From positions 558,001 through 622,000 of the forward strand of contig JAIQDT010000304.1 in assembly GCA_021521415.1 (NCBI GenBank): a stretch of 64,000 nt of DNA. Direction: 5' to 3'. The notes under the pieces were generated by a model. It made no database searches. It was not told where the DNA came from and was given only the letters and a program-made list of their open reading frames with translations. Positions 16,432-46,912 of this stretch are shown here, in pieces. Every line of letters begins with the position of its first letter. The stretch's first letter is position 1. This DNA comes from Bidens hawaiensis. Lineage: Eukaryota > Streptophyta > Magnoliopsida > Asterales > Asteraceae. A program made the position numbers and the translations under genes.

Positions 16432-16567
16432 TTCATGATGCAACTTCTAATTTGATCATTGAGGAACTTGATCTCAATGACACAAATCTTGATTCTAATG
16501 TGTCTACATATTTAATTGTGCAAACTTCCTTTGTTGGAAGAAATCATCCAAATGAAAAGAAAAAATT
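16432..16567 (+). repeat. Copia array, tail of a unit cut by LTR-B
   Basis: This is the last 136 bp of a unit (the spacer before the junction), matching 18111-18246. It shows that the array once extended further left. Confidence 0.9.
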
Positions 16568-18246
16568 GTGAACTCAATTGAAAATGTACTGGAAATGCTT
16601 CATATGGATCTCTTTGATCCGGTGAGTGTTCCTAGTATAGGAAAGAAGAGGTATTTCTTAGTGATTATTGATGATTTTTCAAGATACACTTCGTTTTATT
16701 TTCTGAACTCCAAAGATGATGCTGCTGAATTGATCAAGAGTTGTGTTACAAGGATGGAAAACCAATTGGATGTTATGGTGAAAGTGATGAGAAGTGAAAA
16801 TAGGACTGAGTTCAACAATGGGGTAATGACTAAATTCTGTCTTGCAAAGGGAGTTCTTCAACAATCCAGAGCTCCTAGAACTCCTGAACAAAATGGTGTA
16901 GCTGAAAGAAGAAATAGAACACTCACTGAAGCTGCAAGGACCATGTTAGCAGATGCTTACTTGCCTGTTACTTTTTCGGCAGAAGCAATCAACACTGCCT
17001 TCTATATTCAGTACAGGTTCTTCACAACAAAAGCCAAGACAAGACTCCTTATGAGATTTTGTTCAAAAGAAAGCCCTACATCAAGTTTCTCAAACCTTTT
17101 AGATGCAAGTGTTCTTTACCAAATACTAAAGACTACTTGACCAAGTTTCCATCAAAATCTTTAGACTGCTTCTTTGTTGGATACTCCACACACTCAAAGG
17201 CTTACAGAGTATATGTGAAGGATCACTTGAGTGTGATTGAAACTTCAGATGTGATATTCAATGGAAACCATTTCAATAAAGTTGATGGAGCATCCTGGTT
17301 ATTTTACCATGAGAAGTTAATCAAGTCTTTCAATATTTCTACTGAAAACTTTGATAAAACTTTCTATAGAACAAGTGTCCATGGAGAAAAGTCAGATAAA
17401 AAGATTGACCTGGACAAGTTGTGGTCAAAGGTTGCAAACAAAAATGATGAAAATTCCTTTAATAAGACTGCTTCTGATCATGAAGAAGATGATGAACAAA
17501 ATGACAATCTTGAGCAATCACCTGTTCAAGAACAACCTATCATGAATGATGAGCAAACAAATACTCCACACACTCATAGGCTTACAGAGTGTATGTGAAG
17601 GATCACTTGAGTGTGATTGAAACTTCTGATGTGATATTCAATGGAAACCAGTTCAATAAAGTTGATGGAGCATCCTGGTTATTTTATCTTGAGAAGTTAA
17701 TCAAGTCTTTCAAATTTATACTGAAAACTTTGATAAAACTTTCTATAGAAAAAGTGTCCAAGGAGAAAAGTCAGATAAAAAGATTGACCTGGACAAGTTG
17801 TGGTCAAAGGTTGCAAATAAAAATGATGAAAATTCCTTTAACAAGACTGCTTCTAATCATGAAGAAGATGATGAACAAAATGACAATCTTGAGCAATCAC
17901 CTGTTCAAGAACAACCTATCATGAATGATGAGCAAACAAATGATCAAAATGATCAAGAGCAAACTGTCAACATTGAAGGGCAACCTGATGACTTGTTTGT
18001 TCAATATCAAAATGAAAGACAACCAGACTTTGAAACTTTGTTTCAAAGTTTGAATATTGGAAAAAATGTTGCTTCATCTTCACAATAGTTTGCTGAAGAT
18101 TCAACCAAATTTCATGATGCAACTTCTAATTTGATCATTGAGGAACTTGATCTCAATGACACAAATCTTGATTCTAATGTGTCTACAGATTTAATTGTGC
18201 AAACTTCCTTTGTTGGAAGGAATCATCCAAATGAAAAGAAAAAATT
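16568..18246 (+). repeat. Copia array unit 1 (long type, 1,679 bp)
   Basis: Integrase core MLHMDLFDPV to VAERRNRTL is readable. The second catalytic Asp is Glu (RSENRTEF), and a shared 1-nt deletion (GGG to GG near 17017) shifts the frame. A 380-bp internal duplication, 17182-17561 and 17562-17941, makes this the long type. Confidence 0.9.
17182..17941 (+). repeat. 380-bp internal tandem duplication (defines long units; example in unit 1)
   Basis: The segment from TACTCCACACACTCA to GAGCAAACAAA occurs twice in a row (17182-17561 and 17562-17941). The same duplication with the same junction (AACAAATACTCC) is found in units 3, 5, 7, 9, 10, 12 and 14. Confidence 0.9.
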
Positions 18247-21223: not shown

Positions 21224-22521
21224 GTGAACTCAATCGAAAATGTACTGGAAATGCTTCATATGGATCTCTTTGATCCGGTGAGTGTTCCTAGTATAGGAAA
21301 GAAGAGGTATTTGTTTGTGATTATTGACGATTTTTCCAGATACACTTCGTTTTATTTTCTGAACTCCGAAGATGATGCTGCTGAATTGATCAGGAGTTGT
21401 GTTACAAGGATGGAAAACCAATTGGATGTTATGGTGAAAGTGATGAGAAGTGACAACAGGACTGAGTTCAACAATGGGGTAATGACTGAATTCTGCCTTG
21501 CAATGGGAGTTCTTCAACAATTCAGAGCTCCTAGAACTCTTGAACAAAATGGTGTAGCTGAAAGAAGAAACAGAACACTCACTGAAGTTGCAAGGACCAT
21601 GTTAGCAGATGCTTATTTGCCTGTTACTCTTGGGGCAGAAGCAATCAACACTGCCTTCTATGTTCATTACAGATTCGTCTCAAAAAAGCCTAGACAAGAC
21701 TCCTTATGAGATTTAGTATAAAAGAAAGCCCTACATAAAGTTTCTCATGCCTTTTAAATGCAAGTGCTCATTACCGAATACTAAAGACTACTTGAACAAG
21801 TTTCATTCAAAATCTTTAGACTGTTTCATTGTTGGATACTCCAGACACTCTAAGGCTTACAGAGTATATGTGAAGGATCACTTGAGTGTGATTGAAACTT
21901 CTGATGTGATATTCAATGGATACCAATTCAATACTGTTGATAGAGCATCCTGGTTATTTTATCTTGAGAAGTTAATCAAGTTTTCAAGATTTATCCTGAA
22001 AACTTTGATAAAACTTTGTATAGAACAATTGTTCAAGAAGAAAAGTCAGAAAAGAAGATTGACTTGGACAAGTTGTGGTCAAAGGTTGCAAACAAAATTG
22101 ATGAATGTTCCTTTAACAAGACTGCTTCAGATCATGAAGAAGATGATGAACAGAATGACAATCTAGAGCAATCACCTGTTCAAGAACAACCTATCATGAA
22201 TGATGAGCAAACAAATGATCAAAATGATCAAGAGCAAACTGTCAACATTGAAGGGCAACCTGATGACTTGTTTGTTCAATATCAAAATGAAAGACAACCA
22301 GACTTTGAAACTTTGTTTCAAAGTTTGAATATTGGAAAAAATGTTGCTTCATCTTCACAATAGTTTGCTGAAGACTCAACCAAATTTCATGATGCAACTT
22401 CTAATTTGATCATTGAGGAACTTGATCTCAATGACACAAATCTTGATTCTAATGTGTCTACAGATTTAATTGTGCAAACTTCCTTTGTTGGAAGAAATCA
22501 TCCAAATGAAAATAAAAAATT
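21224..22521 (+). repeat. Copia array unit 4 (short type, 1,298 bp)
   Basis: Short-type markers are LNSEDDAAEL, RSDNRTEF, PRTLEQNG, PVTLGAEA and VHYRFVSKKPRQ. The frame breaks at 21709. Confidence 0.9.
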
Positions 22522-24200
22522 GTGAACTCAATTGAAAATGTACTGGAAATGCTTCATATGGATCTCTTTGATCCGGTGAGTGTTCCTAGTATAGGAAAGA
22601 AGAGGTATTTCTTAGTGATTATTGATGATTTTTCAAGATACACTTCGTTTTACTTTCTGAACTCCAAAGATGATGCTGCTGAATTTATCAAGAGTTGTGT
22701 TACAAGGATGGAAAACCAATTGGATGTTATGGTGAAAGTGATGAGAAGTGAAAATGGGACTGAGTTCAACAATGGGGTAATGACTAAATTCTGTCTTGCA
22801 AAGAGAGTTCTTCAACAATTCAGAGCTCCTAGAACTCCTGAACAAAATGGTGTAGCTGAAAGAAGAAATAGAACACTCACTGAAGCTGCAAGGACCATGT
22901 TAGCAGATGCTTACTTGCCTGTTACTTTTTGGGCAGAAGCAATCAACACTGCCTTCTATATTCAGTACAGGTTCTTCACAACAAAAGCCAAGACAAGACT
23001 CCTTATGAGATTTTGTTCAAAAGAAAGCCCTACATCAAGTTTCCCAAACCTTTTAGATGCAAGTGTTCCTTACCAAATACTAAAGACTACTTGACCAACT
23101 ATCCATCAAAATCTTTAGACTGCTTCTTTGTTGGATACTCCACACACTCAAAGGCTTACAGAGTATATGTGAAGGATCACTTGAGTGTGATTGAAACTTC
23201 TGATGTGATATTCAATGGAAACCATTTCAATAAAGTTGATGGAGCATCCTGGTTATTTTATCTTGAGAAGTTTATCAAGTCTTTCAATATTTATACTGAA
23301 AACTTTGATTAAACTTTCTATAGAACAAGTGTCCATGGAGAAAAGTCAGATAAAAAGATTGACCTGGACAAGTTGTGGTCAAAGGTTGCAAACAAAAATG
23401 ATGATAATTACTTTAATAAGACTGCTTCTGATCTTGAAGAAGATGATGAACAAAATGACAATCTTGAGCAATCACCTGTTCAAGAACAACCTATCATGAA
23501 TGATGAGCAAACAAATACTCCACACACTCAAAGGCTTACAGAGTATATGTGAAGGATCACTTGAGTGTGATTGAAACTTCTGATGTGATATTCAATGGAA
23601 ACCAGTTCAATAAAGTTGATGGAGCATCCTGGTTATTTTATCTTGAGAAGTTAATCAAGTCTTTCAAATTTATACTGAAAACTTTGATAAAACTTTCTAT
23701 AGAACAAGTGTCCAAGGAGAAAAGTCAGATAAAAAGATTGACCTGGACAAGTTGTGGTCAAAGGTTGCAAACAAAAATGATGAAAATTCCTTTAACAAGA
23801 CTGCTTCTATTCATGAAGAAGATGATGAACAAAATGACAATCTTGAGCAATCACCTGTTCAAGAACAACCTATCATGAATGATGAGCAAACAAATGATCA
23901 AAATGATCAACAGCAAACTGTTAACATTGAAGGGCAACCTGATGACTTGTTTGTTCAATATCAAAATGAAAGACAACCAGACTTTGAAACTTTGTTTCAA
24001 AGTTTGAATATTGGAAAAAATGTTGCTTCGTCTTCACAATAGTTTGCTGAAGACTCAACCAAATTTCATGATGCAACTTCTAATTTGATCATTGAGGAAC
24101 TTGATCTCAATGACACAAATCTTGATTCTAATGTGTCTACAGATTTAATTTTGCAAACTTACTTTGTTGGAAAAAATCATCCAAATGAAAAGAAAAAATT
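22522..24200 (+). repeat. Copia array unit 5 (long type); first unit of 7.63-kb block I
   Basis: Private markers DDAAEFIKSC and CLAKRVLQQ are shared only with unit 10. The internal duplication is present, with a stop at GATTAA (near 23308). Confidence 0.9.
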
Positions 24201-25498
24201 GTGAACTCAATTGAAAATGTACTGGAAATGCTTCATATGGATCTCTTTGATCCGGTGAGTGTTCCTAGTATAGGAAAGAAGAGGTATTTGTTTGTGATTA
24301 TTGACGATTTTTCAAGATACACTTCGTTTTATTTTCTGAACTCCGAAGATGATGCTGCTGAATTGATCAAGAGTTGTGTTACAAGGATGGAAAACCAATT
24401 GGATGTTATGGTGAAAGTGATGAGAAGTGACAACAGGACTGAGTTCAACAATGGGGTAATGACTGAATTCTGCCTTGCAAAGGGAGTTCTTCAACAATTC
24501 AGAGCTCCTAGAACTCTTGAACAAAATGGTGTAGCTGAAAGAAGAAACAGAACACTCACTGAAGCTGCAAGGACCATGTTAGCAGATGCTTATTTGCCTG
24601 TTACTCTTGGGGCAGAAGCAATCAACACTGCCTTCTATGTTCATTACGGATTCGTCTCAAAAAAGCCTAGACAAGACTCCTTATGAGATTTTGTTTAAAA
24701 GAAAGCCCTACATAAAGTTTCTCATGCCTTTTAGATGCAAGTGCTCATTACCGAATACTAAAGACTACTTGAACAAGTTTCAATCAAAATCTTTAGACTG
24801 TTTCATTGTTGGATACTCCACACACTCAAAGGCTTAAAAATTATATGTGAAGGATCACTTGAGTGTGATTGAAACTTCTGATGTGATATTCAATGGATAC
24901 CAGTTCAATACTGTTGATAGAGCATCCTGGTTATTTTATCTTGAGAAGTTAATCAAGTTTTCAAGATTTATCCTGAAAACTTTGATAAAACTTTGTATAG
25001 AACAATTGTTCAAGAAGAAAAGTCAGAAAAGAAGATTGACTTGGACAAGTTGTGGTCAAAGGTTGCAAACAAAATTGATGAATGTTCCATTAACAAGACT
25101 GCTTCTGATCATGAAGAAGATGATGAACAAAATGACAATCTTGAGCAATCACCTGTTCAAGAACAACCTATCATGAATGATGAGCAAACAAATGATCAAA
25201 ATGATCAAGAGCAAACTGTCAACATTGAAGGTCAACCTGATGACTTGTTTGTTCAATATCAAAATGAAAGACAACCAGACTTTGAAACTTTGTTTCAAAG
25301 TTTGAATATTGGAAAGAATGTTGCTTCATCTTCACAATAGTTTGCTGAAGACTCAACCAAATTTCATGATGCAACTTCTAATTTGATCATTGAGGAACTT
25401 GATCTCAATGACACAAATCTTGATTCTAATGTGTCTACAGATTTAATTGTGCAAACTTCCTTTGTTGGAAGAAATCATCCAAATGAAAAGAAAAAATT
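24201..25498 (+). repeat. Copia array unit 6 (short type, 1,298 bp)
   Basis: Short type. VHYGFVSKK and the stop GGCTTAAAAA near 24832 are shared with unit 11. Confidence 0.9.
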
Positions 25499-27181
25499 GT
25501 GAACTCAATTGAAAATGTACTGGAAATGCTTCATATGGATCTCTTTGATCCGGTGAGTGTTCCTAGTATAGGAAAGAAGTGGTATTTCTTAGTGATTATT
25601 GATGATTTTTCAAGATACACCTCGTTTTATTTTCTGAACTCCAAAGATGATGCTGCTGAATTGATCAAGAGTTGTGTTACAAGGATGGAAAACCAATTGG
25701 ATGTTATGGTGAAAGTGATGAGAAGTGAAAATGGGACTGAGTTCAACAATGGGGTAATGACTAAATTCTGTCTTGCAAAGGGAGTTCTTCAACAATTCAG
25801 AGCTCCTAGAACTCCTGAACAAAATGGTGTAGCTGAAAGAAGAAATAGAACACTCACTGAAGCTGCAAGGACCATGTTAGCAGATGCTTACTTGCCTGTT
25901 ACTTTTTGGGCAGAAGCAATCAACACTGCCTTCTATATTCAGTACAGGTTCTTCATAACAAAAGCCAAGACAAGACTCCTTATGAGATTTTGTTCAAAAG
26001 AAAGCCCTACATCAAGTTTCTCAAACCTTTTAGATGCAAGTGTTCTTTACCAAATACTAAAGACTACTTGACCAACTTTCCATCAAAATCTTTAGACTGC
26101 TTCTTTGTTGGATACTCCACACACTCAAAGGCTTACAGAGTATATGTGAAGGATCACTTGAGTGTGATTGAAACTTCTGATGTGATATTCAATGGAAACC
26201 ATTTCAATAAAGTTGATGGAGCATCCTGGTTATTTTATCTTGAGAAGTTAATCAAGTCTTTCAATATTTATACTGAAAACTTTGATAAAACTCTCTATAG
26301 AACAAGTGTCCATGGAGAAAAGTCAGATAAAAATATTGACCTGGACAAGTTGTGGTCAAAGGTTGCAAACAAAAATGATGAAAATTCCTTTAATAAGACT
26401 GCTTCTGATCATGAAGAAGCAGTCTGAAGAACAAAATGACAATCTTGAGCAATCACCTGTTCAAGAACAACCTATCATGAATGATGAGCAAACAAATACT
26501 CCACACACTCAAAGGCTTACAGAGTATATGTGAAGGATCACTTGAGTGTGATTGAAACTTCTGATGTGATATTCAATGGAAACCAGTTCAATAAAGTTGA
26601 TGGAGCATCCTGGTTATTTTATCTTGAGAAGTTAATCAAGTCTTTCAAATTTATACTGAAAACTTTGATAAAACTTTCTATAGAACAAGTGTCCAAGGAG
26701 AAAAGTCAGATAAAAAGATTGACCTGGACAAGTTGTGGTCAAAGGTTGCAAACAAAAATGATGAAAATTCCTTTAACAAGACTGCTTCTAATCATGAAGA
26801 AGATGATGAACAAAATGACAATCTTGAGCAATCACCTGTTCAAGAACAACCTATCATGAATGATGAGCAAACAAATGATCAAAATGATCAAGAGCAAACT
26901 GTCAACATTGAAGGGCAACCTGATGAATTGTTAGTTCAATATCAAAATGAAAGACAACCAGACATTGAAACTTTGTTTCAAAGTTTGAATATTGGAAAAA
27001 ATGTTACTTCATCTTCACAATAGTTCACTAAAGACTCAACTAAATTTCATGATGCAACTTCTAATTTGATCATTGAGGAACTTGATCTCAATGACACAAA
27101 TCTTGATTCTAATGTGTCTACAGATTTAATTTTACAAACTTACTTTGTTGGAAAAAATCATCCAAATGAAAAGAAAAAATT
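25499..27181 (+). repeat. Copia array unit 7 (long type, 1,683 bp)
   Basis: GKKWYFLV is shared only with unit 12. A 4-nt net insertion at 26420-26428 creates a perfect 10-bp inverted repeat, AGACTGCTTC (26396-26405) with GAAGCAGTCT (26416-26425). Confidence 0.9.
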
Positions 27182-28479
27182 GTGAACTCAATTGAAAATG
27201 TACTGGAAATGGTTCATATGGATCTCTTTGATCCGGTGAGTGTTCCTAGTATAGGAAAGAAGAGGTATTTGTTTGTGATTATTGACGATTTTTCAAGATA
27301 CACTTCGTTTTATTTTCTGAACTCCGAAGATGATGCTGCTGAATTGATCAAGAGTTGTGTTACAAGGATGGAAAACCAATTGGATGTTATGGTGAAAGTG
27401 ATGAGAAGTGACAACAGGACTGAGTTCAACAATGGGGTAATGACTGAATTCTGCCTTGCAAAGGGAGTTCTTCAACAATTCAGAGCTCCTAGAACTCTTG
27501 AACAAAATGGTGTTGCTGAAAGAAGAAACAGAACACTCACTGAAGCTGCAAGGACCATGTTAGCAGATGCTTATTTGCCTGTTACTCTTGGGGCAGAAGC
27601 AATCAACACTGCCTTCTATGTTCATTACAGATTCGTCTCAAAAAAGCCTAGACAAGACTCCTTATGAGATTTTGTTTAAAAGAAAGCCCTACATAAAGTT
27701 TCTCATGCCTTTTAGATGCAAGTGCTCATTACCGAATACTAAAGACTACTTGAACAAGTTTCAATCAAAATCTTTAGACTGTTTCATTGTTGGATACTCC
27801 ACACACTCAAAGGTTTACAGAGTATATGTGAAGGATCACTTGAGTGTGATTGAAACTTCTGATGTGATATTCAATGGATACCAGTTCAATACTGTTGATA
27901 GAGCATCCTGGTTATTTTATCTTGAGAAGTTAATCAAGTTTTCAAGATTTATCCTGAAAACTTTGATAAAACTTTGTATAGAACAATTGTTCAAGAAGAA
28001 AAGTCAGAAAAGAAGATTGACTTGGACAAGTTGTGGTCAATGGTTGCAAACAAAATTGATGAATGTTCCATTAACAAGACTGCTTCTGATCATGAAGAAG
28101 ATGATGAACAAAATGACAATCTTGAGCAATCACCTGTTCAAGAACAACCTATCATGAATGATGAGCAAACAAATGATCAAAATGATCAAGAGCAAACTGT
28201 CAACATTGAAGGGCAACCTGATGACTTGTTTGTACAATATCAAAATGAAAGACAACCAGACTTTGAAACTTTGTTTCAAAGTTTGAATATTGGAAAAAAT
28301 GTTGCTTCATCTTCACAATAGTTTGCTGAAGACTCAACCAAATTTCATGATGCAACTTCTAATTTGATCATTGAGGAACTTGATCTCAATGACACAAATC
28401 TTGATTCTAATGTGTCTACAGATTTAATTGTGCAAACTTCCTTTGTTGGAAGAAATCATCCAAATGAAAATAAAAAATT
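27182..28479 (+). repeat. Copia array unit 8 (short type, 1,298 bp)
   Basis: Short type with EMVHMDLF at the start; otherwise nearly identical to unit 13. Confidence 0.9.
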
Positions 28480-30155
28480 GTGAACTCAATTGAAAATGTA
28501 CTGGAAATGCTTCATATGGATCTCTTTGATCCGGTGAGTGTTCCTAGTATAGGAAAGAAGAGGTATTTCTTAGTGATTATTGATGATTTTTCAAGATACA
28601 CTTCGTTTTATTTTCTGAACTCCAAAGATGATGCTGCTGAATTGATCAAGAGTTGTGTTACAAGGATGGAAAACCAATTGGATGTTATGGTGAAAGTGTT
28701 GAGAAGTGAAAATGGGACTGAGTTCAACAATGGGGTAATGACTAAATTCTGTCTTGCAAAGGGAGTTCTTCAACAATTCAGAGCTCCTAGAACTCCTGAA
28801 CAAAATGGTGTAGCTGAAAGAAGAAATAGAACACTCACTGAAGCTGCAAGGACCATGTTAGCAGATGCTTACTTGCCTGTTACTTTTTGGGCAGAAACAA
28901 TCAACACTGCCTTCTATATTCAGTACAGGTTCTTCATAACAAAAGCCAAGACAAGACTCCTTATGAGATTTTGTTCAAAAGAAAGCCCTACATCAAGTTT
29001 CTCAAACCTTTTAGATGCAAGTGTTCTTTACCAAATACTAGACTACTTGACCAACTTTCCATCAAAATCTTTAGACTGCTTCTTTGTTGGATACTCCACA
29101 CACTCAAAGGCTTACAGAGTATATGTGAAGGATCACTTGAGTGTGATTGAAACTTCTGATGTGATATTCAATGGAAACCATTTCAATAAAGTTGATGGAG
29201 CATCCTGGTTATATTATCTTGAGAAGTTAATCAAGTCTTTCAATATTTATACTGAAAACTTTGATAAAACTTTCTATAGAACAAGTGTCCATGGAGAAAA
29301 GTCAGATAAAAAGATTGACCTGGACAAGTTGTGGTCAAAGGTTGCAAACAAAAATGATGAAAATTCCTTTAATAACACTGCTTCTGATCATGAAGAAGAT
29401 GATGAAAAAAATACAATCTTAAGCAATCACCTGTTCAAGTACAACCTATCATGAATGATGAGCAAACAAATACTCCACACACTCAAAGGCTTACAGAGTA
29501 TATGTGAAGGATCACTTGAGTGTGATTGAAACTTCTGATGTGATATTCAATGGAAACCAGTTCAATAAAGTTGATGGAGCATCCTGGTTATTTTATCTTG
29601 AGAAGTTAATCAAGTTTTCAAGATTTATCCTGAAAACTTTGATAAAACTTTGTATAGAACAATTGTTCAAGAAGAAAAGTCAGAAAAGAAGATTGACTTG
29701 GACAAGTTGTGGTCAAAGGTTGCAAACAAAATTGATGAATGTTCCTTTAACAAGACCGCTTCTAATCATGAAGAAGATGATGAACAAAATGACAATCTTG
29801 AGCAATCTCATGTTCAAGAACAACCTATCATGAATGATGAGCAAACAAATTATCAAAATGTTCAAGAGTAAAATGTCAACATTGAAGGGCAACCTGATGA
29901 CTTGTTTGTTCAATATCAAAATGAAAGACAACCATACTTTGAAACTTTGTTTAAAAGTTTGAATATTGGAAAAAATGTTGCTTCATATTCACAACAGTTT
30001 ACTGAAGACTCAACTAAATTTCATGATGCAACTGCTGATTTGATCATCGAGGAACTTGATCTCAATGACACAAATCTTGATTTTAATGTGTCTACAGATT
30101 TAATTGTGCAAACTTCCTTTGTTGAAAGAAATCATCCAAATGAAAAGAAAAAATT
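28480..30155 (+). repeat. Copia array unit 9 (long type, 1,676 bp); end of block I
   Basis: MVKVLRSENG and WAETINTAF are shared with unit 14. A 2-nt deletion (ACTAAAGAC to ACTAGAC near 29039) compensates the 1-nt deletion shared by long units, so the frame stays open for 324 codons (28480-29454). Confidence 0.9.
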
Positions 30156-31833
30156 GTGAACTCAATTGAAAATGTACTGGAAATGCTTCATATGGATCTC
30201 TTTGATCCGGTGAGTGTTCCTAGTATAGGAAAGAAAAGGTATTTCTTAGTGATTATTGATGATTTTTCAAGATACACTTCGTTTTACTTTCTGAACTCCA
30301 AAGATGATGCTGCTGAATTTATCAAGAGTTGTGTTACAAGGATGGAAAACCAATTGGATGTTATGGTGAAAGTGATGAGAAGTGAAAATGGGACTGAGTT
30401 CAACAATGGGGTAATGACTAAATTCTGTCTTGCAAAGAGAGTTCTTCAACAATTCAGAGCTCCTAGAACTCCTGAACAAAATGGTGTAGCTGAAAGAAGA
30501 AATAGAACACTCACTGAAGCTGCAAGGACCATGTTAGCAGATGCTTACTTGCCTGTTACTTTTTGGGCAGAAGCAATCAACACTGCCTTCTATATTCAGT
30601 ACAGGTTCTTCACAACAAAAGCCAAGACAAGACTCCTTATGAGATTTTGTTCAAAAGAAAGCCTACATCAAGTTTCCCAAACCTTTTAGATGCAAGTGTT
30701 CCTTACCAAATACTAAAGACTACTTGACCAACTATCCATCAAAATCTTTAGACTGCTTCTTTGTTGGATACTCCACACACTCAAAGGCTTACAGAGTATA
30801 TGTGAAGGATCACTTGAGTGTGATTGAAACTTCTGATGTGATATTCAATGGAAACCATTTCAATAAAGTTGATGGAGCATCCTGGTTATTTTATCTTGAG
30901 AAGTTAATCAAGTCTTTCAATATTTATACTGAAAACTTTGATTAAACTTTCTATAGAACAAGTGTCCATGGAGAAAAGTCAGATAAAAAGATTGACCTGG
31001 ACAAGTTGTGGTCAAAGGTTGCAAACAAAAATGATGAAAATTACTTTAATAAGACTGCTTCTGATCTTGAAGAAGATGATGAACAAAATGACAATCTTGA
31101 GCAATCACCTGTTCAAGAACAACCTATCATGAATGATGAGCAAACAAATACTCCACACACTCAAAGGCTTACAGAGTATATGTGAAGGATCACTTGAGTG
31201 TGATTGAAACTTCTGATGTGATATTCAATGGAAACCAGTTCAATAAAATTGATGGAGCATCCTGGTTATTTTATCTTGAGAAGTTAATCAAGTCTTTCAA
31301 ATTTATACTGAAAACTTTGATAAAACTTTCTATAGAACAAGTGTCCAAGGAGAAAAGTCAGATAAAAAGATTGACCTGGACAAGTTGTGGTCAAAGTTTG
31401 CAAACAAAAATGATGAAAATTCATTTAACAAGACTGCTTCTATTCATGAAGAAGATGATGAACAAAATGACAATCTTGAGCAATCACCTGTTCAAGAACA
31501 ACCTATCATGAATGATGAGCAAACAAATGATCAAAATGATCAACAGCAAACTGTTAACATTGAAGGGCAACCTGATGACTTGTTTGTTCAATATCAAAAT
31601 GAAAGACAACCAGACTTTGAAACTTTGTTTCAAAGTTTGAATATTGGAAAAAATGTTGCTTCGTCTTCACAATAGTTTGCTGAAGACTCAACCAAATTTC
31701 ATGATGCAACTTCTAATTTGATCATTGAGGAACTTGATCTCAATGACACAAATCTTGATTCTAATGTGTCTACAGATTTAATTTTGCAAACTTACTTTGT
31801 TGGAAAAAATCATCCAAATGAAAAGAAAAAATT
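30156..31833 (+). repeat. Copia array unit 10 (long type, 1,678 bp); start of block II
   Basis: It repeats unit 5 at a distance of 7,634 bp, including AEFIKSC and CLAKRVLQQ, but lacks one C (GAAAGCCTAC near 30660). It directly follows another long unit, which breaks the long/short alternation exactly at the block boundary. Confidence 0.9.
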
Positions 31834-33131
31834 GTGAACTCAATTGAAAATGTACTGGAAATGCTTCATATGGATCTCTTTGATCCGGTGAGTGTTCCTA
31901 GTATAGGAAAGAAGAGGTATTTGTTTGTGATTATTGACGATTTTTCAAGATACACTTCGTTTTATTTTCTGAACTCCGAAGATGATGCTGCTGAATTGAT
32001 CAAGAGTTGTGTTACAAGGATGGAAAACCAATTGGATGTTATGGTGAAAGTGATGAGAAGTGACAACAGGACTGAGTTCAACAATGGGGTAATGACTGAA
32101 TTCTGCCTTGCAAAGGGAGTTCTTCAACAATTCAGAGCTCCTAGAACTCTTGAACAAAATGGTGTAGCTGAAAGAAGAAACAGAACACTCACTGAAGCTG
32201 CAAGGACCATGTTAGCAGATGCTTATTTGCCTGTTACTCTTGGGGCAGAAGCAATCAACACTGCCTTCTATGTTCATTACGGATTCGTCTCAAAAAAGCC
32301 TAGACAAGACTCCTTATGAGATTTTGTTTAAAAGAAAGCCCTACATAAAGTTTCTCATGCCTTTTAGATGCAAGTGCTCATTACCGAATACTAAAGACTG
32401 CTTGAACAAGTTTCAATCAAAATCTTTAGACTGTTTCATTGTTGGATACTCCACACACTCAAAGGCTTAAAAAGTATATGTGAAGGATCACTTGAGTGTG
32501 ATTGAAACTTCTGATGTGATATTCAATGGATACCAGTTCAATACTGTTGATAGAGCATCCTGGTTATTTTATCTTGAGAAGTTAATCAAGTTTTCAAGAT
32601 TTATCCTGAAAACTTTGATAAAACTTTGTATAGAGCAATTGTTCAAGAAGAAAAGTCAGAAAAGAAGATTGACTTGGACAAGTTGTGGTCAAAGGTTGCA
32701 AACAAAATTGATGAATGTTCCATTAACAAGACTGCTTCTGATCATGAAGAAGATGATGAACAAAATGACAATCTTGAGCAATCACCTGTTCAAGAACAAC
32801 CTATCATGAATGATGAGCAAACAAATGATCAAAATGATCAAGAGCAAACTGTCAACATTGAAGGGCAACCTGATGACTTGTTTGTTCAATATCAAAATGA
32901 AAGACAACCAGACTTTGAAACTTTGTTTCAAAGTTTGAATATTGGAAAGAATGTTGCTTCATCTTCACAATAGTTTGCTGAAGACTCAACCAAATTTCAT
33001 GATGCAACTTCTAATTTGATCACTGAGGAACTTGATCTCAATGACACAAATCTTGATTCTAATGTGTCTACAGATTTAATTGTGCAAACTTCCTTTGTTG
33101 GAAGAAATCATCCAAATGAAAAGAAAAAATT
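31834..33131 (+). repeat. Copia array unit 11 (short type, 1,298 bp)
   Basis: Repeat of unit 6 at +7,633 bp, with VHYGFVSKK and a stop at GGCTTAAAAA. Confidence 0.9.
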
Positions 33132-34812
33132 GTGAACTCAATTGAAAATGTACTGGAAATGCTTCATATGGATCTCTTTGATCCGGTGAGTGTTCCTAGT
33201 ATAGGAAAGAAGTGGTATTTCTTAGTGATTATTGATGATTTTTCAAGATACACCTCGTTTTATTTTCTGAACTCCAAAGATGATGCTGCTGAATTGATCA
33301 AGAGTTGTGTTACAAGGATGGAAAACCAATTGGATGTTATGGTGAAAGTGATGAGAAGTGAAAATGGGACTGAGTTCAACAATGGGGTAATGACTAAATT
33401 CTGTCTTGCAAAGGGAGTTCTTCAACAATTCAGAGCTCCTAGAACTCCTGAACAAAATGGTGTAGCTGAAAGAAGAAATAGAACACTCACTGAAGCTGCA
33501 AGGACCATGTTAGCAGATGCTTACTTGCCTGTTACTTTTTGGGCAGAAGCAATCAACACTGTCTTCTATATTCAGTACAGGTTCTTCATAACAAAAGCCA
33601 AGACAAGACTCCTTATGAGATTTTGTTCAAAAGAAAGCCCTACATCAAGTTTCTCAAACCTTTTCGATGCAAGTGTTCTTTACCAAATACTAGACTACTT
33701 GACCAACTTTCCATCAAAATCTTTAGACTGCTTCTTTGTTGGATACTCCACACACTCAAAGGCTTACAGAGTATATGTGAAGGATCACTTGAGTGTGATT
33801 GAAACTTCTGATGTGATATTCAATGGAAACCATTTCAATAAAGTTGATGGAGCATCCTGGTTATTTTATCTTGAGAAGTTAATCAAGTCTTTCAATATTT
33901 ATACTGAAAACTTTGATAAAACTCTCTATAGAACAAGTGTCCATGGAGAAAAGTCAGATAAAAATATTGACCTGGACAAGTTGTGGTCAAAGGTTGCAAA
34001 CAAAAATGATGAAAATTCCTTTAATAAGACTGCTTCTGATCATGAAGAAGCAGTCTGAAGAACAAAATGACAATCTTGAGCAATCACCTGTTCAAGAACA
34101 ACCTATCATGAATGATGAGCAAACAAATACTCCACACACTCAAAGGCTTACAGAGTATATGTGAAGGATCACTTGAGTGGGATTGAAACTTCTGATGTGA
34201 TATTCAATGGAAACCAGTTCAATAAAGTTGATGGAGCATCCTGGTTATTTTATCTTGAGAAGTTAATCAAGTCTTTCAAATTTATACTGAAAACTTTGAT
34301 AAAACATTCTATAGAACAAGTGTCCAAGGAGAAAAGTCAGATAAAAAGATTGACCTGGACAAGTTGTGGTCAAAGGTTGCAAACAAAAATGATGAAAATT
34401 CCTTTAACAAGACTGCTTCTAATCATGAAGAAGATGATGAACAAAATGACAATCTTGAGCAATCACCTGTTCAAGAACAACCTATCATGAATGATGAGCA
34501 AACAAATGATCAAAATGATCAAGAGCAAACTGTCAACATTGAAGGGCAACCTGATGAATTGTTAGTTCAATATCAAAATGAAAGACAACCAGACATTGAA
34601 ACTTTGTTTCAAAGTTTGAATATTGGAAAAAATGTTACTTCATCTTCACAATAGTTCACTAAAGACTCAACTAAATTTCATGATGCAACTTCTAATTTGA
34701 TCATTGAGGAACTTGATCTCAATGACACAAATCTTGATTCTAATGTGTCTACAGATTTAATTTTACAAACTTACTTTGTTGGAAAAAATCATCCAAATGA
34801 AAAGAAAAAATT
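33132..34812 (+). repeat. Copia array unit 12 (long type, 1,681 bp)
   Basis: It carries GKKWYFLV and the palindromic insertion of unit 7. It also has the 2-nt deletion of units 9 and 14 and the TTTTCGATGC change of unit 14, and so is a mosaic. The frame is open for 308 codons (33132-34058). Confidence 0.9.
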
Positions 34813-36110
34813 GTGAACTCAATTGAAAATGTACTGGAAATGCTTCATATGGATCTCTTTGATCCGGTGAGTGTTCCTAGTATAGGAAAGAAGAGGTATT
34901 TGTTTGTGATTATTGACTATTTTTCAAGATACACTTCGTTTTATTTTCTGAACTCCGAAGATGATGCTGCTGAATTGATCAAGAGTTGTGTTACAAGGAT
35001 GGAAAACCAATTGGATGTTATGGTGAAAGTGATGAGAAGTGACAACAGGACTGAGTTCAACAATGGGGTAATGACTGAATACTGCCTTGCAAAGGGAGTT
35101 CTTCAACAATTCAGAGCTCCTAGAACTCTTGAACAAAATGGTGTTGCTGAAAGAAGAAACAGAACACTCACTGAAGCTGCAAGGACCATGTTAGCAGATG
35201 CTTATTTGCCTGTTACTCTTGGGGCAGAAGCAATCAACACTGCCTTCTATGTTCATTACAGATTCGTCTCAAAAAAGCCTAGACAAGACTCCTTATGAGA
35301 TTTTGTTTAAAAGAAAGCCCTACATAAAGTTTCTCATGCCTTTTAGATGCAAGTGCTCATTACCGAATACTAAAGACTACTTGAACAAGTTTCAATCAAA
35401 ATCTTTAGACTGTTTCATTGTTGGATACTCCACACACTCAAAGGTTTACAGAGTATATGTGAAGGATCACTTGAGTGTGATTGAAACTTCTGATGTGATA
35501 TTCAATGGATACCAGTTCAATACTGTTGATAGAGCATCCTGGTTATTTTATCTTGAGAAGTTAATCAAGTTTTCAAGATTTATCCTGAAAACTTTGATAA
35601 AACTTTGTATAGAACAATTGTTCAAGAAGAAAAGTCAGAAAAGAAGATTGACTTGGACAAGTTGTGGTCAATGGTTGCAAACAAAATTGATGAATGTTCC
35701 ATTAACAAGACTGCTTCTGATCATGAAGAAGATGATGAACAAAATGACAATCTTGAGCAATCACCTGTTCAAGAACAACCTATCATGAATGATGAGCAAA
35801 CAAATGATCAAAATGATCAAGAGCAAACTGTCAACATTGAAGGGCAACCTGATGACTTGTTTGTACAATATCAAAATGAAAGACAACCAGACTTTGAAAC
35901 TTTGTTTCAAAGTTTGAATATTGGAAAAAATGTTGCTTCATCTTCACAATAGTTTGCTGAAGACTCAACCAAATTTCATGATGCAACTTCTAATTTGATC
36001 ATTGAGGAACTTGATCTCAATGACACAAATCTTGATTCTAATGTGTCTACAGATTTAATTGTGCAAACTTCCTTTGTTGGAAGAAATCATCCAAATGAAA
36101 AGAAAAAATT
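34813..36110 (+). repeat. Copia array unit 13 (short type, 1,298 bp)
   Basis: Repeat of unit 8. Private changes are IIDYFSRY (Asp to Tyr) and MTEYCLAK. Confidence 0.9.
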
Positions 36111-37786
36111 GTGAACTCAATTGAAAATGTACTGGAAATGCTTCATATGGATCTCTTTGATCCGGTGAGTGTTCCTAGTATAGGAAAGAAGAGGTATTTC
36201 TTAGTGATTATTGATGATTTTTCAAGATACACTTCGTTTTATTTTCTGAACTCCAAAGATGATGCTGCTGAATTGATCAAGAGTTGTGTTACAAGGATGG
36301 AAAACCAATAGGATGTTATGGTGAAAGTGTTGAGAAGTGAAAATGGGACTGAGTTCAACAATGGGGTAATGACTAAATTCTGTCTTGCAAAGGGAGTTCT
36401 TCAACAATTCAGAGCTCCTAGAACTCCTGAACAAAATGGTGTAGCTGAAAGAAGAAATAGAACACTCACTGAAGCTGCAAGGACCATGTTAGCAGATGCT
36501 TACTTGCCTGTTACTTTTTGGGCAGAAACAATCAACACTGCCTTCTATATTCAGTACAGGTTCTTCATAACAAAAGCCAAGACAAGACTCCTTATGAGAT
36601 TTTGTTCAAAAGAAAGCCCTACATCAAGTTTCTCAAACCTTTTCGATGCAAGTGTTCTTTACCAAATACTAGACTACTTGACCAACTTTCCATCAAAATC
36701 TTTAGACTGCTTCTTTGTTGGATACTCCACACACTCAAAGGCTTACAGAGTATATGTGAAGGATCACTTGAGTGTGATTGAAACTTCTGATGTGATATTC
36801 AATGGAAACCATTTCAATAAAGTTGATGGAGCATCCTGGTTATATTATCTTGAGAAGTTAATCAAGTCTTTCAATATTTATACTGAAAACTTTGATAAAA
36901 CTTTCTATAGAACAAGTGTCCATGGAGAAAAGTCAGATAAAAAGATTGACCTGGACAAGTTGTGGTCAAAGGTTGCAAACAAAAATGATGAAAATTCCTT
37001 TAATAACACTGCTTCTGATCATGAAGAAGATGATGAAAAAAATACAATCTTAAGCAATCACCTGTTCAAGAACAACCTATCATGAATGATGAGCAAACAA
37101 ATACTCCACACACTCAAAGGCTTACAGAGTATATGTGAAGGATCACTTGAGTGTGATTGAAACTTCTGATGTGATATTCAATGGAAACCAGTTCAATAAA
37201 GTTGATGGAGCATCCTGGTTATTTTATCTTGAGAAGTTAATCAAGTTTTCAAGATTTATCCTGAAAACTTTGATAAAACTTTGTATAGAACAATTGTTCA
37301 AGAAGAAAAGTCAGAAAAGAAGATTGACTTGGACAAGTTGTGGTCAAAGGTTGCAAACAAAATTGATGAATGTTCCTTTAACAAGACCGCTTCTAATCAT
37401 GAAGAAGATGATGAACAAAATGACAATCTTGAGCAATCTCATGTTCAAGAACAACCTATCATGAATGATGAGCAAACAAATTATCAAAATGTTCAAGAGT
37501 AAAATGTCAACATTGAAGGGCAACCTGATGACTTGTTTGTTCAATATCAAAATGTAAGACAATCATACTTTGAAACTTTGTTTAAAAGTTTGAATATTGG
37601 AAAAAATGTTGCTTCATATTCACAACAGTTTACTGAAGACTCAACTAAATTTCATGATGCAACTGCTGATTTGATCATCGAGGAACTTGATCTCAATGAC
37701 ACAAATCTTGATTTTAATGTGTCTACAGATTTAATTGTGCAAACTTCCTTTGTTGAAAGAAATCATCCAAATGAAAAGAAAAAATT
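36111..37786 (+). repeat. Copia array unit 14 (long type, 1,676 bp); end of block II
   Basis: Repeat of unit 9 at +7,631 bp with a private TAG (near 36309). The frame reopens for 255 codons from 36318. Confidence 0.9.
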
Positions 37787-39086
37787 GTGAACTCAATTGA
37801 AAATTTACTGGAAATGCTTCATATGGATCTCTTTGATCCGGTGAGTGTTCCTAGTATAGGAAAGAAGAGGTATTGCTTAGTGATTATTGATGATTTTTCA
37901 AGATACACTTGGGTTTATTTTCTGAACTCCAAAGATGAAGCTGCTGAATTGATCAAGAGTTTTGTTACAAGGATGGAGAACCAATTGGATGTTATGGTGA
38001 AAGTGATGAGAAGTGACAATGGGACTGAGTTCAAGAATGGGGCAATGACTGAATTCTGCCTTGCAAAGGGAATTCTTCAACAATAAAGTGTTCCTAGAAT
38101 TCCTGAACAAAATGGTGTAGCTGAAAGAAGAAATAGAACACTCATTGAAGCTGCAAGGACCACGTTAGATGATGCTTATTTGCAAGTTACTTTTTGGGAA
38201 GAAGCAATCAACACTGCCTTCTATGTTCAGTACAGGGTTCTTCTCAACAAAAGCCAAGACAAGACTCCTTATGAGATTTTGTTCAAAAGAAATCCCTACA
38301 TCAAGTTTTTCAACCCTTTTAGATTCAAGTGCTCATTACCGAATACTAAATACTACTTGAACAAGTTTCCGTCAAAGTCTTTAGACTGCTTCTTTGTTGG
38401 ATACTCCACACACTCAAATGCTTACAAAGTATATGTGAAGGATCACTTGAGTGTGATTGAATCTTCTGATGTGATATTCAATGGAAACCAGTTCAATAAA
38501 GTTGATGGAGCATCCTGGTTATTTTATCTTGAGAAGTTAATCAAGTCTTTCAAATTTATACTGAAAACTTTGATAAAACTTTCTATAGAACAAGTGTCTA
38601 AGGAGAAAAGTCAGGTAAAAAGATAGACCTTGACAATTTGTGGTCAAAAGTTGCAAACAAAAATGATGAAAATTCCTTTAACAAGACTGCTTCTGATCAT
38701 GAAGAAGATGATGAACAAAATGACAATCTTGAGCAATCACCTGTTCAAGAACAACCTATCATGAATGATGAGCAAACAAATGATCAAAATGTTCAAGAAT
38801 AAAATGTCAACATTGAAGGGCAACCTGATGACTTGTTTGTTCAATATCAAAATGAAAGACAACCATACTTTGAAACTTTGTTTCAAAGTTTGAATATTGG
38901 AAAAAATGTTGTTTCATATTCACAACCGTTTGCTGAAGACTCAACAAAATTTCATGATGCAACTACTGATTTGATCATCGAGGAACTTGATCTCAATGAC
39001 ACAAATCTTGATTTTAATGTGTCGACAGATTTAATTGTGCAAACTTCCTTTGTGGAAAGAAATCATCCAAAAGAAAAGAAGAAATT
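37787..39086 (+). repeat. Copia array unit 15 (ancestral-like short, 1,300 bp)
   Basis: It has RYTWVYFLNSKDEAAEL, RSDNGTEFKNG and the in-frame VQYRVLLNKSQDKTPYEI, which match ordinary copia integrases better than units 1-14. It has a stop after LQQ (near 38083). Confidence 0.9.
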
Positions 39087-40377
39087 GTGAACTCAATTGA
39101 AAATGTACTGGAAATGCTTCATATGGATCTCTTTGATCCGGTGAGTGTTCCTAGTATAGGAAAGAAGAGATATTGCTTAGTGATTAATGATGATTTTTCA
39201 AGATACAATTGGGTTTATTTTTTGAACTCCAAAGATGAAGCTGCTGAATTGATCAAGAGTTGTGTTACAAGGATGGAGAACCAATTGGATGTTATGGTGA
39301 AAGTGATGAGAAGTGACAATGGAACTGAGTTCAAGAATCGGGTAATGACTGAATTCTGCCTTGCAAAGGGAATTCTTCAACAATTCAGTGTTCCTAGAAC
39401 TCCTGAACAAAATAGTGTAGCTGAAAGAAGAAACAGAACACTCATTGAAGCTGCAAAGACCATGTTAGAAGATGCTTATATGCAAGTTACTTTTCGGGCA
39501 GAAGCAATCAACACTGCCTTCTATGTTCAGTACAGGGTTCTTCTTAACAAAATCCAAGACAAGACTCCATATGAGATTTTGTTCAAAAGAAATCCCTACA
39601 TCAAGTTTCTCAAGCCTTTTAGATGCAAGTGCTCAATACCGAATACTAAAGACTACTTGAACAAGTTTCAATCAAAATCTTTAGACTGTTTCTTTGTTGG
39701 ATACTCCACACACTCAAAGGCTTACAGAGTATATGTGAAGGATCACTTGAGTGTGATTGAATCTTCTGATGTGATATTCAGTGGAAACCAGTTCAATACA
39801 GTTGATGGAGCATCCTGGTTAGTTTATCTTGAGAAGTTAATCAAGTCTTTGAAGATTTATACTAAAAACTTTGATAAAACTTTGTATAGAACAAGTGTCC
39901 AAGAAGAAAAGTCAGATAAAAAGATTGACTTGGATAACTTGTGGTCAAAGGTTGCAAACAAAAATGATGAATATTCCTTTAACAAGACCGCTTCTGATCA
40001 AGAAGAAGATGATGAACAAAATGACAATCTTGAGCAATCACCTGTTCAAGAACAACCTATCATGAATGATGAGCAAACAAATGATCAAGAGCAAACTGTC
40101 AACATTGAAGGGCAACCTGATGACTTGTTTGTTCAATATCAAAATGAAAGACAACCATACTTTGAAACATTTTTCAAAGTTTGAATATTGGAAAAAATGT
40201 TGCTTCATCTTCACAACAGTTTGCTGAAGACTCAACTAAATTTCATGATGCAACTGCTGATTTGATCAACGAGGAACTTGATCTCAATGACACAAATCTT
40301 TATTTTAATGTGTCTACAGATTTAATTGTGCAAACTTCCTTTGTTGAAAGAAATCATCCAAAAGAAAAGAAGAAATT
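39087..40377 (+). repeat. Copia array unit 16 (ancestral-like, 1,291 bp; longest open frame)
   Basis: A 365-codon frame (39087-40184) spans the integrase core, the GKQ-less C-terminal part and the acidic spacer (EEDDEQNDNLEQ). The first Asp and second Asp (RSDNGTEF) and the Glu (VAERRN) are kept. Odd residues are INDDFSRYNW, EQNSVAERR and TFRAEA. There is no initiation signal; it is an internal polyprotein segment. Confidence 0.9.
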
Positions 40378-41669
40378 GTGAACACAATTAAAAATGTACT
40401 GGAAATGCTTCATATGGATCTCTTTGATCCGGTGAGTGTTCCTAGTATAGGAAAGAAGAGGTATTGCTTAGTGATTATTGATGATTTTTCAAGATATACT
40501 TGGGTTTATTTACTGAACTCCAAAGATGAAGCTGCTGAATTGATAAAGAGTTGTGTTACAAGGATGGAGAACCAATTGGATGTTATGGTGAAAGTGATGA
40601 GAAGAGACAATGGGACTGAGTTCAAGAATGGGGTAATGACTGAATTCTGCCATGCAAAGGGAATTTTTCAACAATTCAGTGTTCCTAGAACTCCTGAACA
40701 AAATGGTGTAGCTGAAAGAAGAAATAGAACACTCATTGAAGCTGCAAGGACCAGGTCAGAAGATGCTTATTTGCAAGTTACCTTTTGGGCAGAAGCAATC
40801 AACACTGCCTTCTATGTTCAGTACAGGGTTCTTCTCAACAAAAGCCAAGACATGACTCCATATGAGATTTTGTTCAAAAGAAAGTCCTACATCAAGTTTC
40901 TCTAGCATTTTAGATGCAAGTGCTCAATACTGAATACTAAAGACTACTTGAACAAGTTTCAATCAAAATCTTTAGACTGTTTCTTTGTTGGATACTCCAC
41001 ATACTCAAAGGCTTACAGAGTATATGTGAAGGATCACTTGAGTGTGATTGAATCTTCTGATGTTATATTCAATGGAAACCAGTTCAATACAGTTGATGGA
41101 GCATCCTGGTTAGATTATCTTGAGAAGTTAATCAAGTGTTTCAAGATTTATCCTAAAAACTTTGATAAAACTTTGTATAGAACAAGTGTCCAAGAAGAAA
41201 AGTCAGATAAAAAGATTGACATGGACAAGTTGCGGTCAAAGGTTGCAAACAAAAATGATGAATATTCCTTTAACAAGACTCCATCTGATCATGAAGAAGG
41301 TGATGAAGAAAATGACAATCTTGAGCAATCACCTGTTCAAGAACAACCTATCATGAATGATGAGGAAACAACATGATCAAGAGCAAACTGTCAACATTGA
41401 AGGGCAACCTGATGACTTGTTTGTTCAATATCAAAATGAAAGACAACCATACTTTGAAACTTTTTTCAAAGTTTGAATGTATGAAAAAATGTTGCTTCAT
41501 CTTTACAATAGTTTGCTGAAGACTTAACAAAATTTCATGATGCAACTGCTAATTTTATTATTGAGGTATTTGATCTCAATGACACAAATCTTGATTCTAA
41601 TGTGTCTACAGATTTAATTGTGCAAAGTTCCTTTGTTGGAAGAAATCATCCAAAAGAAAAGAAGAAATT
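40378..41669 (+). repeat. Copia array unit 17 (ancestral-like, 1,292 bp)
   Basis: Integrase is open to 40905 (stop in place of the KPFRC segment), with RRDNGTEF. The spacer is frameshifted near 41370. Confidence 0.9.
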
Positions 41670-43782
41670 GTGAACTCAATTGAAAATGTACTGGAAATGC
41701 TTCATATGGATCTCTTTGATCCGGTGAGTGTTCCTAGTATAGGAAAGAAGAGGTATTGCTTATTGATTATTGATGATTTGTCAAGATACACTTGGGTTTA
41801 TTTTCTGAACTCCAAAGATGAAGCTGCTGAATTGATCAAGAGTTGTGTTATAATATGGAAAACAAATTGGATTTTATGGTGAAAGTGATGAGAACTGACA
41901 ATAGGACTGAGTTCAACAATGGGGTAATGACTGAATTCTGCCTTGCAAAGGGAATTCTTCACCAATTGAGAGCTCCTAGAACTCCTAAACAAAATGGTGT
42001 AGCTGAAAGAAGAAACAGAACACTCACTGAAGCTGCAAGGACTATGTTAGAAGATGCTTATTTGCCTATTACTTTTTGGGTAGAAGCAATCAACACTGCC
42101 TTCAATGTGCAATACAGGTTCTTCTCAACAAAAGCCAAGACAAGACTCCTTATGATATTTGGTTCAAAAGATATCCCTACATCAAGTTTCTCAAGCCTTT
42201 TAGATGCAAGTGCTCATTATTGAATACTAAAGACTACTTGAACAAGTTTCAGTCAAAATCTTTAGACTGTTTCTTTGTTTGATACTCCACACACTCAAAG
42301 GCTTACAGAGTATATGTGAAGGATCACTTGAGTGTGAGTGAATCTTCTGATATGATATTCAATGGAAACCAGTTCAATACAGTTGATGGAGCATCCTGGT
42401 TAGTTTATCTTGAGAAGTTAATCAAGTCTTTCAAGATTTATCCTGAAAACTTTGATAAAACTTTGTATAGAACAAGTGTCCAAGAAGAAAAGTCAGATAA
42501 AAAGATTGACTTGGACAAGTTGTGGTCAAAGGTTGCAAACAAAAATGATGAATATTCCTTTAACAAGACCGCTTCTGATCATGAAGAAGATGATGAACAA
42601 AATGACAATCTTGAGCAATCACCTGTTCAAGAACAACCTATCATGAATGATGAGCAAACAAATGATCAAAATGTTCAAGTGTAAAATGTCAACATTGAAG
42701 GGCAACCTGATGACTTGTTTGTTCAATATTAAAACGAAAGACAACCATACTTTGAAACTTTGTTTCAAAGTTTGAATATTGGAAAAAATGTTGCTTCATA
42801 TTCACAACAGTTTGCTGAAGACTCAACTAAATTTCATGATGCAACTGCTGATTTGATCATCGAGGAACTTGATCTCAATGACACAAATCTTGATTTTAAT
42901 TTGTCTACAGATTTAATTGTGCAATCTTCCTTTGTTGAAAGAAATCATCCAAATGAAAACATCATTGGGGACATTAATGAAAGAATTACCATAAGTGCAT
43001 CTGAATCTGCAAACATCTGTTTGTACTCCTTCTTTCTATCCCAAGTTGAACCCAAGAACGTTGTTCAAGCATTAAAAGACAATAGTTGGGTAGAAGCAAT
43101 GCTGGAAGAGTTGGTTCAATTCAAAGATTTGTAAGTGTGTGAACTTGTAGATAAGCCAAGAAACAAGAATGCCATTGGAACCAAATGGGTTTTTAGGAAC
43201 AAGAGAGATGAAAGAGGGATTGTTATAAAGAGCAAGGCATGACTAGTTGCTCTAGGCTGCTTAAAAAAGGAAGGAATTGACTTTGAGGAAGTATTTGCAA
43301 CAGTGGCAAGGCTAGAGGCTATCAGAATCTTTCTAGCCTATTCCGCTTCAAAGAATATTAATGTGTTTCAATTGGATGTTAAATCTGTCTTTCTAAATGG
43401 AAAAATTGAAGATGAGGTGTATGTGGCTCAACCTCCAAGCTTTGAGGATCCTGAGTTTCCAGATTGAGTCTACAAGTTGAACAAAGCTCTATATGGATTC
43501 CATCAAGCACCAAGGGCTTGGTATGATGAGTTATCAAACCACTTGCTTGTTAATGGTTTTCAACGGGGAGCAATTGACAAGAACCTTTTTCTACAAAAGG
43601 AGAGGAAGAGATTTACTCTTCTACAAGTTAATGTAGATGAAATCATCTTTGGGTCTACCAATGAACAAATGTGCTTGGAGTTTGAAGAAGTCATGAAATT
43701 AAAATACTGCATGAGCTCCAAGGGTGAAATGAATTTCCTTCTGGGTTTGCAAGTTCAACAAAAGAAAGATGGCATATTCATT
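41670..43782 (+). pseudogene. Copia array unit 18 running on into reverse transcriptase
   Basis: This is the only unit that does not end in the array junction. Integrase (41670 to about 42223, with a frameshift near 41850) and the acidic spacer are followed at 42960 by ...NENIIGDIN..., the native continuation. RT then follows with FLSQVEPKNVVQAL, GTKWVFRNKRDERG, FQLDVKSVFLNG and LYGFHQAPRAWYDEL. The catalytic YVDD is NVDE (about 43633-43644). In-frame stops lie near 43132, 43240 and 43465. RT is cut at 43782 by element C. Confidence 0.88.
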
Positions 43783-46700: not shown

Positions 46701-46907
46701 GCGTGAGGGATGTTAGGATACATTATATTAAATAGAATTATGTATCATATTGTATGATGTGTGTATCACCTAGACGGTAATGAAATATGAGATAATGTAA
46801 TTTGAAGTATATTAATGTATTCAGTTTTCTTTATAAACAATGTGGTTGATATCAGAGGTGTCTGTTGCATCCCGTTTACGTTTCCACTGCGGTTACGGGG
46901 TGTTACA
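43783..46907 (+). repeat. Element C 5' LTR
   Basis: 3,125 bp, aligned to 52742-55866 with dozens of scattered differences. Contains a set of three variable-arm hairpins (45887-45984). Non-coding. Confidence 0.95.
45887..45984 (+). repeat. Three variable-arm hairpins in the element C LTR
   Basis: The loop TTAACATTGC or TTAACAGTGT lies between arms GTTCTGGG/CCCGGAAC (45887-45913), ATTCTGGG/CCCAGAAT (45921-45947) and GTACTGGG/CCCA...GTAC (45955-45984). The outer four bases differ in each copy and remain complementary. The set is repeated in the 3' LTR (about 54845-54943). Confidence 0.8.
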
Positions 46908-46912
46908 GAACT

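Follow-up and report, generated by a model that had tools for sequence, protein, structure and literature searches.

Among described tandem repeats that come from transposable elements, the closest to the case treated here are CRM1TR and CRM4TR, maize repeats derived from centromeric gypsy elements (PMC3648361). The present case is an array in a 64,000-nucleotide stretch of Bidens hawaiensis DNA (contig JAIQDT010000304.1, positions 558,001 to 622,000; hereafter the window), where 18 copies of an integrase segment stand head to tail inside a Ty1/copia retrotransposon. It is very probably a satellite-like array that was born inside one dead copia element, through a founding microhomology duplication followed by unequal exchange and conversion.

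In the passages of PMC3648361 that bear on them, CRM1TR and CRM4TR are similar to the present array in several respects. Their units are retrotransposon-derived and have an illegitimate founding junction, conversion or exchange is held responsible for their growth and mosaicism, and retrotransposons that inserted later serve for dating. The units lie at one or two loci, and the CRM4TR monomer (~1.37 kb) is close in length to the 1.3-kb unit found here. In the present array too, units come wholly from one retrotransposon and share one illegitimate junction. The maize repeats differ in that they consist of the long terminal repeat (LTR) and untranslated region (UTR) of gypsy/CRM elements and are found in or near centromeres, whereas the present array is made from a copia integrase coding segment, is still joined to its parent on one side, and contains dimer and five-unit repeats.

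The Ogre-derived satellites of Lathyrus sativus, as the available part of PMC7004042 presents them, also lie within LTR retrotransposons and expand in place. They differ in starting from short repeats that pre-exist in the 3'UTR of many copies; higher-order repeats are reported in that source for the two satellites that are not derived from Ogre. Coding parts of transposable elements serve as monomers in a further set of satellites, which includes gag in rye E3900 and a 250-bp repeat of wheat and rye, LINE ORF2 in chicken HinfI and Phodopus PROsat, and CACTA transposase in Chenopodium CficCl-61-40 (passages of PMC9659126 and PMC3648361). The present array resembles these in its source, and it keeps the junction between parent and array. 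Potato sobo and St3 likewise have kilobase-long monomers related to LTR retrotransposons, but in the same passages they are LTR-related and located in or near centromeres, with sobo spanning ~360 kb (PMC3648361, PMC9659126).

No row of the satellite-source Table 1 in PMC9659126 names a copia integrase, no such case occurs in the passages of PMC8407070, PMC9241371 and PMC13270711, and no copia-integrase satellite was seen in the excerpts of the open-access literature searched. The review does conclude, in the part available, that any part of a mobile element may serve as a satellite source (PMC9659126). The present array is another case of the known tandem repeats derived from transposable elements, unusual in its source segment, in the surviving junction with its parent, and in the readable order of its steps.

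The array and its parent element

The array occupies 16553..42953 on the plus strand (26.4 kb) and comprises eight long and ten short units, numbered u1 to u18 from left to right. The 18 head-to-tail units reported by the initial annotation were all recovered from start spacings and unit bounds, the successive spacings being 1679, 1299, 1678, 1298, 1679, 1298, 1683, 1298, 1676, 1678, 1298, 1681, 1298, 1676, 1300, 1291 and 1292 bp. Each unit starts a few codons before the copia integrase core and continues through the core and an SH3-like domain into the spacer between integrase and reverse transcriptase (RT). This agrees with the span first proposed, and among three unit open reading frames (ORFs) tested, Pfam matches were obtained for rve in all and for SH3_retrovirus in one. 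The longest ORF in the array (365 amino acids, in u16; 39087..40184, plus strand) covers the integrase core and the SH3-like domain. Identity between units is 91.7-99.8% over all 153 pairs, where the eight long units were compared after removal of their first internal-duplicate copy. The self-comparison that had been proposed as a check gave strong peaks of 0.41-0.45 at shifts of 7631, 1298 and 2977. Since these exceed the maximum of 0.286 for shuffled sequence (three shuffles, every 7th shift sampled), the periodicity is far beyond chance.

Two unit sizes, of about 1.3 and 1.7 kb, had been recognised at the outset, and their relation can now be added: a long unit (1676-1683 bp, n = 8) is a short unit (1291-1300 bp, n = 10) plus one tandem internal duplication of 379-384 bp. 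In u1 the duplication lies at 17181..17941 on the plus strand. Its junction, CAAAT/ACTCC, where the two ends share 2 bp (AT), is common to all eight long units and reads CAAACAAATACTCCACACAC. The eight first copies of the internal duplicate form a single group in the tree (96/95 support, from a bootstrap that had not settled), so the internal duplication most likely occurred once.

Native RT is joined by the last unit only, as had been stated: after u18 the spacer continues in frame into RT. The native spacer end and RT, with in-frame stops, lie at 42954..43782 (plus strand), and RVT_2 matches were found with Pfam in both RT pieces tested, downstream of the array. The right end of the array had been placed at 43131; that position falls in RT, and the repeats stop near 42953. 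The end of RT and an RNase H-like remainder with stops were recognised by eye at 55867..56600 (plus strand), where neither of two pieces tested gave a Pfam match. Between the two parts, RT is interrupted by a nested gypsy element (43783..55866, plus strand; LTRs at 43783-46907 and 52742-55866), flanked by the target-site duplication TCATT at 43778-43782 and 55867-55871. The parent has its integrase upstream of RT and copia-type domains, as in Ty1/copia; RVT_2 together with this domain order is what we take to be the mark of copia. The copia element is extremely poor in CpG (observed/expected 0.06-0.11 over 16432-43781 and 55867-57000), compared with 0.96 and 1.12 in two gypsy stretches measured, and this poverty reflects either decay or a family trait.

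Among the best 120 of 7999 scored matches, read by eye, all named relatives belong to Asteraceae (Tanacetum, Smallanthus, Helianthus, Mikania, Centaurea, Cichorium and Lactuca), with identities up to 83%. In a second search, the named ones among the best 120 of 1769 matches were mostly from Tanacetum and Arctium, with Centaurea also present. The best match listed there had 74% identity, and one match carried a Micrococcus luteus label, presumably a contamination. Taken by themselves, the matches would probably place the host plant in Asteraceae.

At its left end the array is cut by an LTR termed LTR-B, as the initial annotation had it. The right part of LTR-B (15381..16431) ends directly at the array, with the cut at 16431/16432, and mismatch comparison with unit tails identifies the next 121 bp (16432..16552, plus strand) as the tail of a further, nineteenth unit. 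This stub has one mismatch against the tails of the short units u4, u6, u8 and u13, two against u1, u2 and u11, and 4-8 against the other 11 units. That the array was once longer holds for at least this stub.

As a whole, the array encodes nothing: none of the junctions keeps the frame, and a stop or a frame change is present in each unit. Read in the frame of the spacer, TGA is met at all 18 junctions, which means that the duplication broke the polyprotein and that the amplification is not one that makes protein. One G is missing from 15 of the 18 units and another G also from 15, each loss shifting the frame. A single-frame count of replacement and silent changes over the whole unit (1.32 and 1.53) was discarded because of these shifts, and the ratio to neutral expectation was read in three separate pieces, corrected for transitions and transversions only. 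The integrase piece (82 replacement and 27 silent changes) gave 0.89 (p = 0.57), the SH3-like piece (61 and 20) gave 0.85 (p = 0.50), and the spacer piece (77 and 36) gave 0.57 (p = 0.008). The spacer at ~42440-42953, with the spacers of the other units, has fewer replacement changes than expected under neutrality, unlike the integrase and SH3-like pieces. Stops or indels touch every unit across the three pieces, although u16 still keeps its long ORF. The array lacks the kept frame and the constraint on protein that a functional integrase gene array would have, and selection for integrase was rejected on the out-of-frame junctions and the near-neutral integrase and SH3-like pieces, the spacer result pointing the opposite way.

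Junctions, growth and relative ages

The register is the same at all 18 unit junctions. Fifteen read CAAATGAAAA, then G or T and an A run, while the three nearest RT, leading into u16, u17 and u18, read CAAAAGAAAAGAAG; the junction letters are AAATGAAAA in the 15 and AAAAGAAAA in the three at the right edge. The array junction sequence is CATCCAAATGAAAAGAAAAAATTGTG, and the native spacer reads CAAATGAAAAC. The initial annotation had described every junction as identical, which is correct for the register and incorrect for the letters. It had also regarded junctions that differ between units as evidence against its interpretation; with the register constant and the letters different at three of 18, the pattern is read as a single founding break, followed by substitutions. 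Two separate breaks at one register are a possible alternative.

In relatives, the integrase core is preceded by a basic linker, for example ...KGKQHRASCKTK...LHMDLFGP; 85 of 240 proteins surveyed match the core motif with at least 25 residues upstream, and 25 of these 85 were listed. The KRKEEIVNSIENVLEMLHMDLF of the edge units, translated by hand, suits the position of this linker, so that linker and spacer plausibly shared a short A-rich match. The founding microhomology is judged from the one side of the break that can be read.

The tree of units contains a right-edge group (u15-u18), a group of short units (u4, u6, u8, u11 and u13) and a group of long units, with u2 apart. Long and short units alternate as a 2.98-kb dimer across u1-u8 and again across u10-u13. 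Five sister pairs (u5/u10, u6/u11, u7/u12, u8/u13 and u9/u14) are 99.6-99.8% identical and mark the last duplication, in which u5-u9 (22507..30140, plus strand) is the source block and u10-u14 (30141..37771, plus strand) the copy. Near-identity runs from ~22550 to 30183 and the copy abuts directly (22550-30183 aligned with 30184-37820); over 7631 bp the two differ by 25 substitutions and 2 gaps. Prior to this event, the array would have counted 13 units within the window. The divergent edge units u15-u18 (37772..42953, plus strand) are without the internal duplication, and the largest differences between units are found at this edge. This is as expected if the right edge is the oldest part, with exchange renewing the interior of the array and sparing its border. 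The dimer structure can be seen directly, and the order in which it was amplified would follow from the tree.

Fifty sites separate the long from the short type of unit. At these sites u9 and u14 carry long letters at the first 34, short letters at the next 15 and a long letter at the last 1; u2 is mixed, with 30 long, 17 short and 3 neither. The edge units are mixed too (29-39 long-type letters), as expected if they retain older states. Overall, 1291 of 6670 site pairs are incompatible. Among near neighbours the proportion is 0.084, against 0.194 +/- 0.009 in permutations, of which 0 of 1000 were as low, and this rarity of incompatibility between neighbouring sites indicates mosaic sequences. 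A 2-bp deletion in u12 is shared with u9 and u14 and not with its sister u7, pointing to conversion later than the block duplication. Methylation-type decay is not supported as the driver of unit differences, since transversions outnumber transitions (178 vs 135 variants); CG (6) and CHG (69) sites are few among 1299 positions.

A long head-to-tail array is typical of satellite DNA, and within the window the present one also shows homogenisation, higher-order repeats and, at the right edge, older units. The earlier expression 'becoming a satellite' is fair in the form 'satellite-like'.

Transversions were used as the yardstick of age, and are the fairer one because CpG is very scarce in the copia part (observed/expected 0.10) but not in the gypsy stretches. 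The LTRs of the nested gypsy are 2.6% apart (80 differences in 3123 sites), with 36 transversions or 0.0115 per site. The two blocks (25 differences in 7631) have 18 transversions or 0.0024 per site, which is lower than the LTR value (p = 1.9e-8). Both edge pairs exceed it: u16/u17 have 67 differences in 1291 sites, 36 of them transversions (0.028 per site; p = 2e-4), and u17/u18 have 90 in 1290, with 52 transversions (0.040 per site; p = 4e-9). By transversions, the gypsy insertion apparently has about five times the age of the block duplication; the edge units apparently predate the insertion. Unless conversion or assembly error misdates the block, at least the last growth step apparently happened when the RT of the element had already been interrupted. 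If the block is younger than the gypsy that interrupts RT, this step would not be a by-product of the copia element's own reverse transcription. As an order of magnitude only, a substitution rate of 1.3e-8 per site and year would put the edge units at ~2-3, the gypsy at ~1 and the block at ~0.1 million years.

Origin of the array and alternatives

Four steps probably account for the array. Firstly, an A-rich stretch upstream of integrase would have been joined illegitimately with a similar AAATGAAAA stretch in the spacer, duplicating the 1.3-kb integrase-SH3-spacer piece. Secondly, once there were at least two copies, misaligned sister arrays would exchange and convert, adding units in register, as the pattern suggests. 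Thirdly, one unit would have gained the 379-bp internal duplication where 2 bp (AT) matched, and this long unit and a short neighbour would have been amplified together as the 2.98-kb dimer; here the structure is visible and the order is taken from the tree. Fourthly, one event would have placed a second copy of the 7.63-kb five-unit block beside the first, to judge from divergence after the gypsy had cut copia RT. Unequal exchange is preferred because the array has one register, one internal-duplication junction, an adjoining block and mosaic units. On these grounds the earlier account, one founding duplication and then unequal exchange, stands, with a microhomology step that we infer.

Several observations weigh against this account. 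On the 5' side of integrase, the native sequence at the founding break lies outside the window. The replacement deficit of the spacer is unexplained by simple neutrality. The age of the dimer step (0.0081) is not separable from that of the gypsy insertion (0.0115; p = 0.19), and copies that have undergone conversion can appear more recent than their true age. Second copies of the internal duplicate are not united in the tree: in u9 and u14 they fall with short units, a scatter read as recombination. Finally, the two blocks are 0.33% apart, within a haplotype-like range.

The founding duplication might instead have been made by template switching in reverse transcription, before insertion, so that the copy arrived with at least two integrase pieces. 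The edge units, 5-7% apart and older than the gypsy insertion, allow a founding event that predates the visible decay, and abnormal strand transfer has been proposed as one of the sources of tandem repeats in the Ogre 3'UTR (in the available part of PMC7004042). A copy with an out-of-frame junction and an early TGA would, however, need help in trans, and the last block, by its divergence, postdates the gypsy in RT; this origin has some probability, but a low one. Rolling-circle copying of an extrachromosomal circle, with reinsertion by homology, would likewise give head-to-tail units in one register and is an option named for the maize arrays in the passages of PMC3648361. It is unlikely here, since repeated unequal exchange explains more simply the stepwise appearance of single units, dimer and adjoining five-unit block, and since the runs of near-identical neighbours expected from a circle are not seen among the units.

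An assembly artefact, either repeat expansion or two haplotypes placed in tandem, could have produced u10-u14, and the small distance between the blocks is what such an error might leave. Other unit pairs, however, are ~1-8% apart and have private stops and indels, so that most of the array is not one duplicated sequence. The limits of the block fall within the array rather than at a unique flank, and the 2-bp deletion that sets u12 apart from u7 and links it with u9 and u14 suggests later exchange within the array; an artefact, whole or partial, is quite improbable. Gene-like, selected amplification of the integrase coding sequence, to which the integrase ORFs of 160-365 amino acids in several units and the spacer deficit could point, is very hard to sustain against 18 out-of-frame junctions with stops, lesions in every unit and near-neutral integrase and SH3-like pieces.

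It is tempting to speculate that a new satellite family originated at this locus, and that its unit or 2.98-kb dimer spread to larger, possibly centromeric, arrays elsewhere while the founding step was kept at the parent. This reading is improbable.

Neighbouring elements and meaning of the array

A second LTR similar to LTR-B is present at 59456-62100; it is 81-88% like the left copy and is followed by a stretch resembling a primer-binding site. Both copies contain 49-bp and 14-bp tandem repeats. Downstream of the RNase H-like region of copia, at 58170-58603, a 109-bp sequence is repeated in tandem 3.7 times.

A very young gypsy element is inserted in LTR-B at 1589-15375, with target-site duplication TGTAC and LTRs that differ at 2 of 2468 sites. 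Its outer LTRs are on the minus strand and its gag-pol ORF (7096-11046) is on the plus strand, followed by a further ORF to 11663. The gag-pol ORF is preceded by a partial plus-strand LTR (5781-6973) and a stretch like a primer-binding site, and another partial LTR lies at 4078-5781. The interior is inverted, as after self-integration or an inversion.

Satellite origins are often inferred from finished arrays. Here a portion of the source element, the single junction, the variant that seeded the dimer, the block duplication and a dated insertion occur on one stretch of DNA, and the order of steps can therefore be read. Internal coding sequence, besides the repeats of LTRs and UTRs, can seed an array of this kind, and the relative ages suggest that array growth can continue after the death of the element.

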